Assembly (NCBI GenBank): GCA_013298985.1
Contig: JAAFJS010000002.1
Location: forward strand, 1-64,000
Direction of reading: 5' to 3'
Source: Cytophagales bacterium
GTDB lineage: Bacteria; Bacteroidota; Bacteroidia; Cytophagales; Thermoflexibacteraceae
DNA: 64,000 bases
This document shows positions 43,266-48,762 of the stretch, one piece after another. Below the pieces are notes generated by a model that had not been told where the DNA came from, ran no database searches, and saw nothing but the letters and a program-made list of their open reading frames with translations. Positions within the stretch are counted from its first letter, which is position 1. Each line of letters begins with the position of its first letter. The position numbers and the translations under genes are program-made.

Positions 43266-44345
43266 TTATCTGCTCGCCTGAATCTTGATAGATTCGTCGT
43301 GAATCAGTTTGAAAAGTTGAGCAGTAAAATCCTTGTCCAAGTTCATTTTCTCGCCCCATTCAGGTCTGGTATTGAATACTTTTGTCCATCTATCTACTTG
43401 GAAAACAGTGATTTTGTTTGTTTTTTTGTAATCACCAATTTTCTCTACGAGGGACATTCTCGCCGCCAAAATCTCTAAAATTTCTCTGTCGATGCCATCT
43501 ATTTTGCTGCGAAGGTCGTCCAGTTGCGTATTAAATTCCTGATTTTCTGTGGTTGGGCGTTTGATTTGGAGTTCTTTCAAAATCTCATGGAGGCGCAAAG
43601 GCGTAACCTGCTGGCTGGCATCACTCCATGCGTTGTCGGGGTCTATGTGGGTTTCAATCATCAATCCGTCGTAGTTCAAGTCCATGGCGCGCTGTGCCAG
43701 TGGCAAAATCAGGTCGCGCTTGCCTCCGATATGGCTTGGGTCGCAGAAAATAGGCAATTCGGGCAGTAGGCTTTTCAGTTCAATCGCTATCTGCCACATA
43801 GGAATATTGCGGTATTTCGTTTTCTCAAAAGAAGAAAAACCTCTGTGCAAAGCGGCTAATTTGGTGATTCCCGCCCCTGCAATGCGCTCAATGCCGCCCA
43901 GCCAAAGCGAAAGGTCTGGATTGATGGGGTTTTTGACAATCACAGGAATATCTACGCCGCGCAAGGCATCAGCGATTTCCTGTACCGTAAATGGATTCAC
44001 CGTACTGCGTGCGCCTATCCAAAGAATGTCGACCTCGTGCTTTAATGCCAGCTCAACGTGCTGTGCGTTAGCTACTTCGGTGGCAGTAGGCAAGCCCACT
44101 TCTTTTTTGACTTCTTTGAACCATTTTAAGCCAATTTCGCCCACACCCTCAAAGCTGTTAGGGCGAGTGCGCGGCTTCCAGATGCCCGCCCGCAAGATGT
44201 CAATGCCCGAATCGGTCAGTGCCTTGCAGGTGGTGAGTAGCTGGTCTTCGGTTTCTGCACTGCAAGGTCCTGCAATGACTACTGGTTTTTTGTCGCCATT
44301 AGGCTGTTTTTTACCAATCCAAGATTCTAATGTACTGATGTTCAT
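43266..44345 (-). CDS. bifunctional 3-deoxy-7-phosphoheptulonate synthase / chorismate mutase type II
   Basis: VVIAGPCSAET, RAGIWKPRTRPNSFEG, CDPSHIGGKRDLI; C-term chorismate mutase LRSKIDGIDREILEILAARMSLVEKIGDYKK. Confidence 0.95.
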   Translation of the reverse strand: MNISTLESWIGKKQPNGDKKPVVIAGPCSAETEDQLLTTCKALTDSGIDILRAGIWKPRTRPNSFEGVGEIGLKWFKEVKKEVGLPTATEVANAQHVELALKHEVDILWIGARSTVNPFTVQEIADALRGVDIPVIVKNPINPDLSLWLGGIERIAGAGITKLAALHRGFSSFEKTKYRNIPMWQIAIELKSLLPELPIFCDPSHIGGKRDLILPLAQRAMDLNYDGLMIETHIDPDNAWSDASQQVTPLRLHEILKELQIKRPTTENQEFNTQLDDLRSKIDGIDREILEILAARMSLVEKIGDYKKTNKITVFQVDRWTKVFNTRPEWGEKMNLDKDFTAQLFKLIHDESIKIQASR

Positions 44346-44396
44346 ACAATTTGATGTTTGTTATTCGATTTTTTTGATTTAGACATTGGTTAAAAC

Positions 44397-44435
44397 AAAA
44401 AGGCTTACTGCTCATAATGAACAGTAAGCCTTTTT
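44397..44435 (-). terminator. attenuator terminator in the DAHP synthase leader
   Basis: AAAAAGGCTTACTG / CAGTAAGCCTTTTT perfect 14-bp arms with T-run, 52 nt before ATG 44345. Confidence 0.9.
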
Positions 44436-44475
44436 AGATTTATGTTATTGCAACGCATAACAATCAGCTTTCTGC

Positions 44476-44538
44476 TCATACGATTGTGTCGTACCAGAAG
44501 TAATAAAAGCTAAAATATGTGTTGGCAGTTGGATTCAT
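44476..44538 (-). CDS. aromatic-amino-acid-rich leader peptide MNPTANTYFSFYYFWYDTIV
   Basis: 20-aa ORF with Y-F-S-F-Y-Y-F-W-Y run, between a promoter and a terminator upstream of the DAHP synthase gene. Confidence 0.88.
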   Translation of the reverse strand: MNPTANTYFSFYYFWYDTIV

Positions 44539-44568
44539 TGAAAAATTATGTTTTTACTTATTTTTTGA

Positions 44569-44599
44569 CAAATGTATTGCTTTTTTAATATTTCACAAA
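44569..44599 (-). promoter_or_regulatory. Bacteroidota-type promoter TTTG-N19-TACATTTG
   Basis: TTTG (44596-44599) and TAnnTTTG (44569-44576) with 19-nt spacing, 31 nt before the leader peptide ATG. Confidence 0.8.
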
Positions 44600-44658
44600 T
44601 TTATGCACTATTTTTTTGAAATTATTTTAAAACATTTTCATCAACTTCTTAAAAAAAT

Positions 44659-45150
44659 CTAATATTTCACTTTCACGCCATGATAGCTTTCCTGCTGTTC
44701 GTAGTCCTTGCGAAGTGGAAAGCCCTGCCAATCAGCAGGAAGCAAGATGCGGCGCAAGTCCAGATGCCCCTCAAAATGAATCCCCAGCAAATCGTAAGTT
44801 TCCCTTTCATGCCAATCCGCAGTGCGCCAAATGTGCGAAAGCGTGGGTACGCAAGGCAGAGGCTCATCAGGCTGATTGCGAGGCACTTTGACTTTGAGGG
44901 TCAGAGAGGTAGCTCTTAAAATGGAATACAAATGATAAATTACTTCCAACGTGCTTTCACTCGCGCCATGGTCAATGCCAGTGATGCAAGCTAAATGGTC
45001 AAAACCGTTTTCATGCAATATTTTGCCCGCTTCTGCTATTTTTTCTACTCGAATATGTAGATAGGGTTGCATCACTTTTTCATTTGCCTCGATGATGACA
45101 TCATGCCCTAAGTGCTTAATTATTAAGTTTTTAATTTCCTCAAACTGCAT
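44659..45150 (-). CDS. nuoC: NADH-quinone oxidoreductase subunit C
   Basis: LEVIYHLYSI, TLSHIWRTADWHERETYDLLGIHFEGHLDLRRILLPADWQGFPLRKDY. Confidence 0.93.
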   Translation of the reverse strand: MQFEEIKNLIIKHLGHDVIIEANEKVMQPYLHIRVEKIAEAGKILHENGFDHLACITGIDHGASESTLEVIYHLYSILRATSLTLKVKVPRNQPDEPLPCVPTLSHIWRTADWHERETYDLLGIHFEGHLDLRRILLPADWQGFPLRKDYEQQESYHGVKVKY

Positions 45151-45337
45151 TTTTTGGAATTGTATAATTTTAAGTAGCAAGAAAAATAAAAGTATATTAA
45201 ATGGTTCGACACACCAATTTAGGCGAATGATTTTAACCATTGCATCTGTTAGCGAAGCGCGCCTGCAACAATTCTTTGGTGCGCTTGGATAACACCAAAA
45301 ATAGTAAAATGCTTGTGGTGTTTATTCTATTTTTGTT

Positions 45338-45534: not shown

Positions 45535-46338
45535 GCTAAAAAAGGAAGTGGCTCAGTACTCTCTCTTGTAGAGGAAGAGATTATCTGCCAGACCCGTTTA
45601 AAAACGCTACGCTCCTTAGATGATTTGTATGTAGTGCTTAAAAAGCAAATGGCGCAACTGACCCGTTCCAATCTGCACCGTTGTTTGCAGCGAAACCAAC
45701 TGAGCCGTTTAAGTGCTATTTTGCCTAAAGAGGCTGGCACAGAAAAAAAGAAATTCAAAGATTATCCTATAGGTTATCTGCCTATAGATACGGCTGAAAT
45801 TCATATTGCCAAGGAGAAATATTTTCTTTTTGTGGCTATAGACCGCACCTCCAAGTACGTTTATGTGGAAGTATATGACAACAAAAGGATAGAAACGAGT
45901 AAGGTTTTTCTTGAAAATGTAATTGCTCATTACCCCTATCAGTTGGATAAGATACTCACTGACCATGGTATGGAGTTCACCTATGAGTTGCTCTTAGAAG
46001 AAAAACGTCCCAAAGATAAAATACACGCCTTTGATGCGCTCTGCCAGAAACATCAAATAGAACACCGTTTGACCCTTTTCCGCCATCCTTGGACGAATGG
46101 GCAGGTAGAACGCATGAACCGAAAAATCAAAGAACACACCACTTACAAATTTTATTATGAAAATAGCCAACAATTCAAAGAACATTTGTATTATTACTTG
46201 CTGGAGTATAACTTTCATACCCCACTCAAAGGACTTAAATTTAAAACTCCTTTTGAAAAAATACAAGATGAATATAAGACAAATCCAAGTATTTTTAAAC
46301 AAAACCCTGACCTCTTAATTGTGGGACTAAACAGGTAG
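45535..46338 (+). pseudogene. IS481-type transposase, 5'-truncated
   Basis: GSVLSLVEEEII...LTRSNLHRCLQRNQLSRL, IDTAEIHIAKEKYFLFVAIDRTSKYVYVEVY, LTDHGMEFT, HPWTNGQVERMNRKIKEHT (DDE core); N-terminal HTH region missing. Confidence 0.82.
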
Positions 46339-47391: not shown

Positions 47392-48762
47392 TTAGGCTGG
47401 AATGGCAATGTCTTCCAGTTCTTTCAGGTTGGAGAATAGCTGCTCGTCTGTGAAATAATGGTCTTGTAGCTTTCCTGCAAAATAGTCTTCATAAGCCTGC
47501 AAATCAAAGTGTCCATGCCCACAAAGGTTAAACAAGATGACGCGTTCTTTGCCGTCGCGTTTTGCCTCTTCTGCTTGGCGAATCACGGAAGCAATGGCGT
47601 GATTTGCCTCTGGTGCGGGCAAAATGCTCTCTGCTTTGGCAAATAGTACGCCTGCCCTAAAACATTCTAACTGCTGAATCGCCTCTGCTTGTACCAATCC
47701 ATCGCGCATGAGCTGGCTCACCACAGGGCTACCTCCATGATAGCGCAAGCCGCCCGCGTGTACCGCAGGAGGCATAAAGTTATGTCCCAAGGTAAACATA
47801 GGCATCAAGGGAGTCATGCCAATCGTATCGCCAAAATCATATCGGAACTCTCCTTTGGTCAGCTTGGGGCAGGAAGCAGGCTCAGATGCCAGCAACTTGA
47901 CCTTTTTGCCATGTACTAATTTTTGATGCAAAAATGGCAAAGAAAGACCCGCAAAGTTCGAGCCGCCGCCAAAAGGTGCAATGACGACATCAGGAAAATC
48001 GCCCGCCATTTCCATTTGCTTGACTGCCTCCAAGCCCACGATGGTTTGGTGCATCAATACGTGGTTTAGCACACTTCCCAGCGAATAGTTGGTGTCTTCG
48101 CGCATGACCGCACGCTCAACCGCTTCAGAGATAGCAATGCCCAAGCTGCCGTTAGAGTGAGGGTCAGCCGCCAGAATTTGTCTTCCTGCCGCCGTTCTGT
48201 CGCTTGGCGAGGCTATCACTTCTGCGCCCCAAGTGTTCATCATAATTTTGCGGTAAGGCTTTTGGTGGTAGCTGATTTTGACCATGTAAACCTCCAATTC
48301 CAAGCCAAAATGCTGACAGGCATAGCTCAAAGCACTTCCCCACTGTCCTGCGCCTGTTTCCGTAGTGATTTTTTTAATCCCTGCCTGTTTATTGTAATAA
48401 GCCTGCGGAATGGCTGTGTTGGGCTTGTGCGAACCGCTTGGGCTTCCGCCTTCGTACTTGTAGTAGATTTTTACGGGTGCGTCAAGCAGTTTTTCAAAAT
48501 CATAGGCGCGAAATAGAGGGGAAGGTCGCCATTTTTTGTAAATATCGACCACCTCATCGGGCATATCAATCCAGCGTTCCTTGGAAACCTCTTGCTTGAT
48601 AAGTTCCATCGGGAAAAGTGGTGCTAAATCTTCGGGACCTACAGGCTGCTTGGTGCCAGGGTGTAGCGGCGGCAACAACGGCGTAGGCATATCAGCCTGA
48701 ATGTTATACCACTGATGCGGCATTTCATTTTCGGGAAGAATAATTTTTCGTAGTTTACTCAT
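47392..48762 (-). CDS. TrpB-like PLP-dependent enzyme (TrpB2 type)
   Basis: RPSPLFRAYDFEKLL, YYKYEGGSPSGSHKPNTA, TTETGAGQWGSALSYA, GGGSNFAGLSLPFL. Confidence 0.92.
   Translation of the reverse strand: MSKLRKIILPENEMPHQWYNIQADMPTPLLPPLHPGTKQPVGPEDLAPLFPMELIKQEVSKERWIDMPDEVVDIYKKWRPSPLFRAYDFEKLLDAPVKIYYKYEGGSPSGSHKPNTAIPQAYYNKQAGIKKITTETGAGQWGSALSYACQHFGLELEVYMVKISYHQKPYRKIMMNTWGAEVIASPSDRTAAGRQILAADPHSNGSLGIAISEAVERAVMREDTNYSLGSVLNHVLMHQTIVGLEAVKQMEMAGDFPDVVIAPFGGGSNFAGLSLPFLHQKLVHGKKVKLLASEPASCPKLTKGEFRYDFGDTIGMTPLMPMFTLGHNFMPPAVHAGGLRYHGGSPVVSQLMRDGLVQAEAIQQLECFRAGVLFAKAESILPAPEANHAIASVIRQAEEAKRDGKERVILFNLCGHGHFDLQAYEDYFAGKLQDHYFTDEQLFSNLKELEDIAIPA

Follow-up and report, generated by a model that had tools for sequence, protein, structure and literature searches.

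The 64,000-nt stretch of DNA analysed here (the window) carries, upstream of a gene for DAHP synthase fused to chorismate mutase, a leader that is very probably a ribosome-mediated transcription attenuator controlling the only DAHP synthase of its genome. The anatomy of this element, its conservation, its mutually exclusive pairings and its single target enzyme can all be read from the sequence, and re-reading the minus strand placed the promoter, the leader ORF, the terminator hairpin and the DAHP synthase ATG exactly where a preliminary description of this DNA had put them (Table 1). The mechanism would be of the textbook trp type; what is unusual is the target gene, in the Bacteroidota genus Thermoflexibacter, where alone this aro version of the attenuator was seen. 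The nearest named relatives are T. ruber DSM 9560 and two MAGs, and because the genus is common to them and to the window's genome, we assign the window to a Thermoflexibacter species (Cytophagales). Conservation was judged on these four genomes only, in which the controlled protein is 89-90% identical.

Table 1. Features of the attenuator and of related trp elements; positions are those of the window unless a genome and contig are given.
Feature	Position	Strand	Evidence or remark
Promoter TTTG-N19-TACATTTG, Bacteroidota-type	44569-44599	-	Sequence; motif kept in 4/4 Thermoflexibacter genomes
Promoter parts	TTTG 44599-44596; gap 19 nt; TACATTTG 44576-44569	-	
Leader peptide ORF MNPTANTYFSFYYFWYDTIV	44476-44538	-	Stop UGA 44478-44476
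Segment 1, aromatic codons, partner of segment 2	44488-44511	-	1:2 hairpin energies, four species
Segment 2 CGTATGAGCAGAAAGCT, leader stop codon inside, antiterminator 5' strand	44466-44482	-	Identical in 4/4 genomes
Post-stop stretch of the preliminary description, GCAGAAAGC	44475-44467	-	
Segment 3 GGCTTACTGTTCAT, antiterminator 3' strand and terminator 5' arm	44417-44430	-	Pairing counts, folds
Intrinsic terminator AAAAAGGCTTACTG/CAGTAAGCCTTTTT, 3:4 hairpin and U-tract	44397-44435	-	-24.3 kcal/mol
DAHP synthase/chorismate mutase, controlled gene, ATG 44345	43266-44345	-	PF00793 + PF01817
trpE/trpG attenuator L165	G000:C37:2437-2526	+	Trp-codon leader, stop codon inside antiterminator
trpE/trpG attenuator L178	G000:C30:14012-14110	+	Trp-codon leader, stop codon inside antiterminator
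trp attenuators of other species, L166-L168, L177, L191-L193, L195, L197, L199, L201, L202, L204, L207, L208			Same design

The aromatic leader and its gene

The controlled protein, of 359 aa, joins a type I-beta DAHP synthase to a type II chorismate mutase. It is the only DAHP synthase found in the window's genome, where the other PF00793 match is KdsA; in the genus no second DAHP synthase was found, and PF01474 is absent. That the leader controls the pathway's only entry enzyme would explain why it holds codons for all three end products. For pheA and hisG, comparison within the genus revealed no conserved leader. An ORF some 3 kb away from the DAHP gene (47392-48762, minus strand) resembles by eye a tryptophan synthase beta subunit of the TrpB2 type, and a model scan of the window gave no strong attenuator match before it.

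Codons 8-16 of the leader comprise 4 Tyr, 3 Phe and 1 Trp, and the core that they belong to, YFSFYYFWY, is invariant before the DAHP synthase/chorismate mutase gene in all four available Thermoflexibacter genomes, with 96% identity over the core codons as against 66% over the N-terminal ones. First-order Markov sequence (4 Mb) simulated with the base composition of the leader's intergenic region (25.6% GC) contained no ATG ORF of 8-45 aa with at least eight aromatics in any 10 residues, and six ORFs with at least seven; on both strands of the real window, the aromatic leader is the only ORF with at least eight in 10. The element thus has what an attenuator calls for at its start, a short and apparently translatable aromatic-rich ORF upstream of a biosynthetic gene. 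When more than 100 DAHP/chorismate mutase locus records (some genomes being included twice) were scanned for aromatic leaders, eight of 10 was reached only by Thermoflexibacter.

Weaker candidate leaders were observed elsewhere. In two Microscillaceae-like genomes (L023 and L115, in G058 and G063), the conserved candidate MENIKHNI[SA]PRFYYYCRFSFCYWWR lies 231-152 nt before the DAHP/chorismate mutase start, and a similar one, ..KYYYCNKSLGYYWWRW.., is found upstream of DAHP/chorismate mutase in L015 (G027). At these three candidates no clear intrinsic terminator and no model match were seen, and they are possibly aromatic leaders with another output.

Within Thermoflexibacter, one leader departs from the common form. 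In the incomplete MAG G002 (62% completeness) it reads MNLSFNAYFSFYYFWYGNRMSRKLIL (L002/L159, G002:C15), where the frame is shifted by a 2-nt difference that follows the core, so that the stop comes 20 nt later. The difference may be a genuine change or an assembly error; a ribosome at the displaced stop would still cover most of segment 2, with a spacing different from that of the other three.

Identity along the four-genome alignment is concentrated in islands (segment 2, 100%; terminator, 91%), between and beyond which the sequence drifts (spacer, 65%; DNA downstream of the terminator, 47%). The promoter has the form TTTG-N19-TAnnTTTG throughout, 58-61 nt ahead of the leader ATG and always with a gap of 19 nt. 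Conservation in relatives, which the preliminary description had named as a check, is therefore borne out: core, promoter, antiterminator strand and terminator are kept in all four genomes, and flanks and spacer are not.

The same comparison bears on a simpler reading of the hairpin and U-tract between the leader ORF and the DAHP synthase gene. Since nuoC (44659-45240) lies upstream of the leader on the same strand in the window, the hairpin might only be the terminator of nuoC and the aromatic ORF a chance reading frame. The upstream neighbour, however, differs in each of the four genomes, being in G003 a different gene of the same orientation and in G002 and G001 a divergent one, and yet the whole leader is conserved; moreover, a conserved promoter stands between nuoC and the leader, and an ORF of this kind, with its conserved core, is not expected by chance. 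We consider this reading extremely improbable and take the hairpin, because the neighbours differ and are divergent in two of the four genomes, as part of the DAHP gene leader rather than the end of a nuo transcript. As nuoC adjoins the DAHP gene in the window's genome alone, a local rearrangement is suggested; beside nuoC lies an ORF (45625-46338, plus strand) that by eye is integrase- or transposase-like.

Alternative pairings and the proposed switch

The segments of Table 1 can form three mutually exclusive pairings. One of them (1:2), in which the leader codons pair with the antiterminator strand, is absent from the preliminary description and completes the classical 1:2 / 2:3 / 3:4 set. 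In the window the computed energies are -12.9 kcal/mol for the 1:2 hairpin, -17.5 for the 2:3 duplex and -24.3 for the 3:4 hairpin; over the four species the 1:2 hairpin ranges from -10.7 to -13.7 kcal/mol, and in the other three the 2:3 duplex reaches up to -23.6 kcal/mol. The antiterminator strand had been described as the stretch just after the leader stop; that stretch does take part, but its extent was drawn too short, for the strand begins ahead of the stop codon and includes it. The pairing covers 13-14 positions in the window; in the other three species it covers about 17, one mismatch included. As expected of an attenuator, the predicted antiterminator would exclude the terminator by using its 5' arm, together with a strand that is masked when a ribosome stands at the leader stop.

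Compensatory changes in the terminator, which the preliminary description had suggested looking for, were found: among seven aro and trp sequences three pairs changed on both sides, and 95.9% of the cells are paired. In the same aro and trp alignment, 87.8% of the antiterminator cells are paired, compared with 35-46% when the strands are slid. Its covariation score was reached by 459 of 500 shuffles and is uninformative, because the 2:3 pairs are almost invariant. When the pairing of the spacer with segment 3 was set against shuffled sequences, 38, 21 and 24 of 2000 were as strong in three species; for the DNA after the stop codon of G002 the number was 1861 of 2000, and the test failed there because the stop is displaced by 20 nt.

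For the masking folds the ribosome footprint was taken, in line with toe-prints in general, to extend 12 nt beyond the first base of the A-site codon. At the stop codon it covers the core of segment 2, TGAGCAGAAAGCT, and a stall at any aromatic codon leaves this core free, even at the last one, Tyr16, because that codon lies 15 nt ahead of the stop. With the window RNA extended to the end of segment 3, the antiterminator had a probability of 0.86-0.91 for stalls at codons 8-16 and of 0.00 both with a ribosome at the stop and without a ribosome. In three of the four species the free RNA of this length also forms the antiterminator (0.71-0.88), so the behaviour without a ribosome is uncertain. 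The full leader transcript always favours the terminator at equilibrium (0.83-0.99), and the switch must therefore be kinetic, a demand that is shared with the known trp and phe attenuators.

With this in mind, the following sequence of events may be proposed, in which we infer the transcription start, termination in vivo and the response to each amino acid. Transcription would begin about 20-25 nt ahead of the leader ATG. With charged Tyr-, Phe- and Trp-tRNA in good supply, the ribosome would reach the UGA inside segment 2 and cover that segment, upon which the terminator would form and transcription would stop near 44397. Scarcity of any one of the three amino acids would make the ribosome stall at codons 8-16, leaving segment 2 to pair with segment 3 and so to block the terminator. 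If the leader is not translated, its codons could hold segment 2 in the 1:2 hairpin and the terminator would form, though this last state is uncertain. The classical pheA/trp-type attenuation proposed in the preliminary description is thus supported by conservation, the compensatory terminator changes, the masking folds and the match of a model made from trp elements only (see below).

A leader that is translated might also act through translational coupling, or its peptide might itself have a function, the terminator being constitutive with partial read-through. Other roles are indeed possible for Bacteroidota leader genes (PMC4833913), and the terminator is strong at equilibrium. However, 130-166 nt separate the leader stop from the DAHP start, a distance beyond the reach of simple coupling, the segment with 100% identity is just the one required for pairing with the leader codons as well as with the terminator arm, and the geometry of stop codon and antiterminator recurs at trp genes with Trp-codon leaders, all of which makes such a role very unlikely.

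A narrower form of attenuation deserves more weight, although we hold it to be rather less probable than sensing of all three amino acids: the leader may sense one or two of them, for example Phe and Tyr, the Trp codon being structural. The 7:1 ratio of Tyr and Phe codons to Trp codons speaks in its favour, as does the C. glutamicum leader AroR, which PMC11802643 reports to respond to Phe and not to Tyr. Against it, the Trp codon is invariant in the four species and stands among those whose stall frees segment 2, and the trpE leader of the window's own genome likewise has a single Trp codon.

Relation to the trp attenuators of Cytophagales

In three of the four Thermoflexibacter genomes, a Trp-codon leader with a near-identical terminator lies upstream of trpE. 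A model built from aro and trp elements (R1) and run over 148 Cytophagales genomes recovered, across several families, many trpE/trpG leaders in which WW or WWW runs occur; examples are MKLNVHNGWWWSISRKM, MSAFNTIWWWRAHLNKMDE and MIKTNSYNLAWLWWQTKFSC, of which the third sits before trpG in the window's own genome. In most of these trp elements a strand resembling GUGAACAG, in which the leader stop usually lies, pairs with the terminator arm CUGUUCAC, with 91% of the antiterminator cells paired, compared with 30-58% when slid; the pairing is kept in 4 aro and 18 trp elements. The trp terminators show strong covariation (19 cells changed on both sides), a score reached by none of 500 shuffles. 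Attenuators of trpE/trpG with Trp-codon leaders and the stop codon inside the antiterminator are thus widespread in Cytophagales.

A second covariance model (R2) was made from 18 Cytophagales trpE/trpG elements and contained no aro sequence, though these elements were first gathered via R1 or gene context, which makes the set less than fully independent of the aro ones. R2 finds the window's aro element with 69.2 bits (E 4.7e-11), the same terminator on the opposite strand scoring 40.4 bits. Only aroG-CM, trpE (61) and trpG (58) exceed 57 bits in the window's genome, the next match having 40.4; the aro elements score 67.5-69.5 bits, against at most about 43 for ordinary terminators and reverse-strand controls, and of 77 DAHP/chorismate mutase locus records from Cytophagales and their relatives, none but the four Thermoflexibacter loci match above 44 bits. 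The many weak matches of R1 and R2 (about 30-43 bits) were rejected as ordinary terminators by their gene context.

The aro element may derive from a trp element by duplication or may have reached a like design by convergence; its identity is 57% to the trpG elements of the genus and 59% to those of a sister genus, with a tree support of 0.53 over about 90 nt. Together with the similar attenuators at trpE and trpG it would belong to a small aromatic regulon. One may tentatively speculate, with less than even confidence, that, in the ancestor of Thermoflexibacter, the only DAHP synthase gene acquired a copy of a Bacteroidota trp attenuator, in whose leader an all-aromatic run then took the place of the Trp codons. 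According to this speculation, one leader would sense three end products and would form, with trpE and trpG, a three-site attenuation regulon replacing a TyrR/TrpR-like repressor system. E. coli divides the aromatic control of DAHP synthase among three isozymes and repressors; the present element would suggest how, in a lineage with a single DAHP synthase, one enzyme can answer to all three aromatic amino acids. It would also suggest a route by which attenuators spread between operons, the leader codons changing and the switch being kept, and the comparison puts leader-peptide attenuation in Cytophagales on firm ground. The prediction is testable, because a type strain has been designated for T. 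ruber (GEY, DSM 9560).

Comparison with known systems

The ilv and thr leaders are known examples in which one leader has codons for several amino acids, and the E. coli trpL and pheL leaders (PMC11802643) share with the window's element a design of regulatory codons, alternative 1:2 / 2:3 / 3:4 hairpins and an intrinsic terminator. These E. coli leaders serve trpEDCBA and pheA and are not all-aromatic.

Against Rfam the window's element gave no meaningful match, either at the gathering cut-offs or up to E=10; the matches to Thr_leader, mir-14 and rliE are terminator-like chance hits and were discounted, their likeness being that of hairpins in general. Among Bacteroidota, leader-peptide attenuation is represented there by Bacteroid-trp, RF01692 (PMC2864571), also a peptide leader RNA and with a similar terminator arm (AAAAAGGCUUG). 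This family (gathering 49 bits) gave no window match at gathering and none up to E=10 in 44340-44620, and whereas its members have a Trp-codon leader upstream of trp genes, the window's element has codons mainly for Tyr and Phe, with one for Trp, and targets DAHP synthase/chorismate mutase. Among the Cytophagales trpE leaders L208 passes the family cut-off and L201 matches weakly; since L208 is the only one to pass among the trp leaders scanned, RF01692 could be extended. Clues to leader-peptide attenuation have also been described in Flavobacterium psychrophilum, where they lie ahead of amino acid operons (PMC9723704).

In a search of mostly open-access literature, no account was found of the Thermoflexibacter element or of an all-aromatic leader of DAHP synthase/chorismate mutase. 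The novelty implied in the preliminary description, attenuation at the first shikimate step in a Bacteroidota background, holds in part, as RF01692 and two further systems are precedents. An attenuator was predicted in B. thetaiotaomicron, also a member of Bacteroidota, before the operon pheA > hisHb > aroA(I-beta)-aroQ > tyrA, which contains the same DAHP synthase-chorismate mutase fusion (PMC1173090, Table 7); there the predicted attenuator precedes pheA, whereas the Thermoflexibacter fusion gene has a leader of its own. The other parallel is aroF of C. glutamicum, a DAHP synthase gene that is likewise preceded by a ribosome-mediated attenuator with aromatic codons, in the leader AroR (Neshat et al. 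2014, as given in PMC11802643 and PMC4046766). C. glutamicum, however, is an Actinobacterium in which, according to these texts, a short Phe-Tyr-Phe run with a reported Phe response governs one of two DAHP synthases, whereas here, in a Bacteroidota genus, eight aromatic codons of three kinds stand before the sole DAHP synthase, fused to chorismate mutase.
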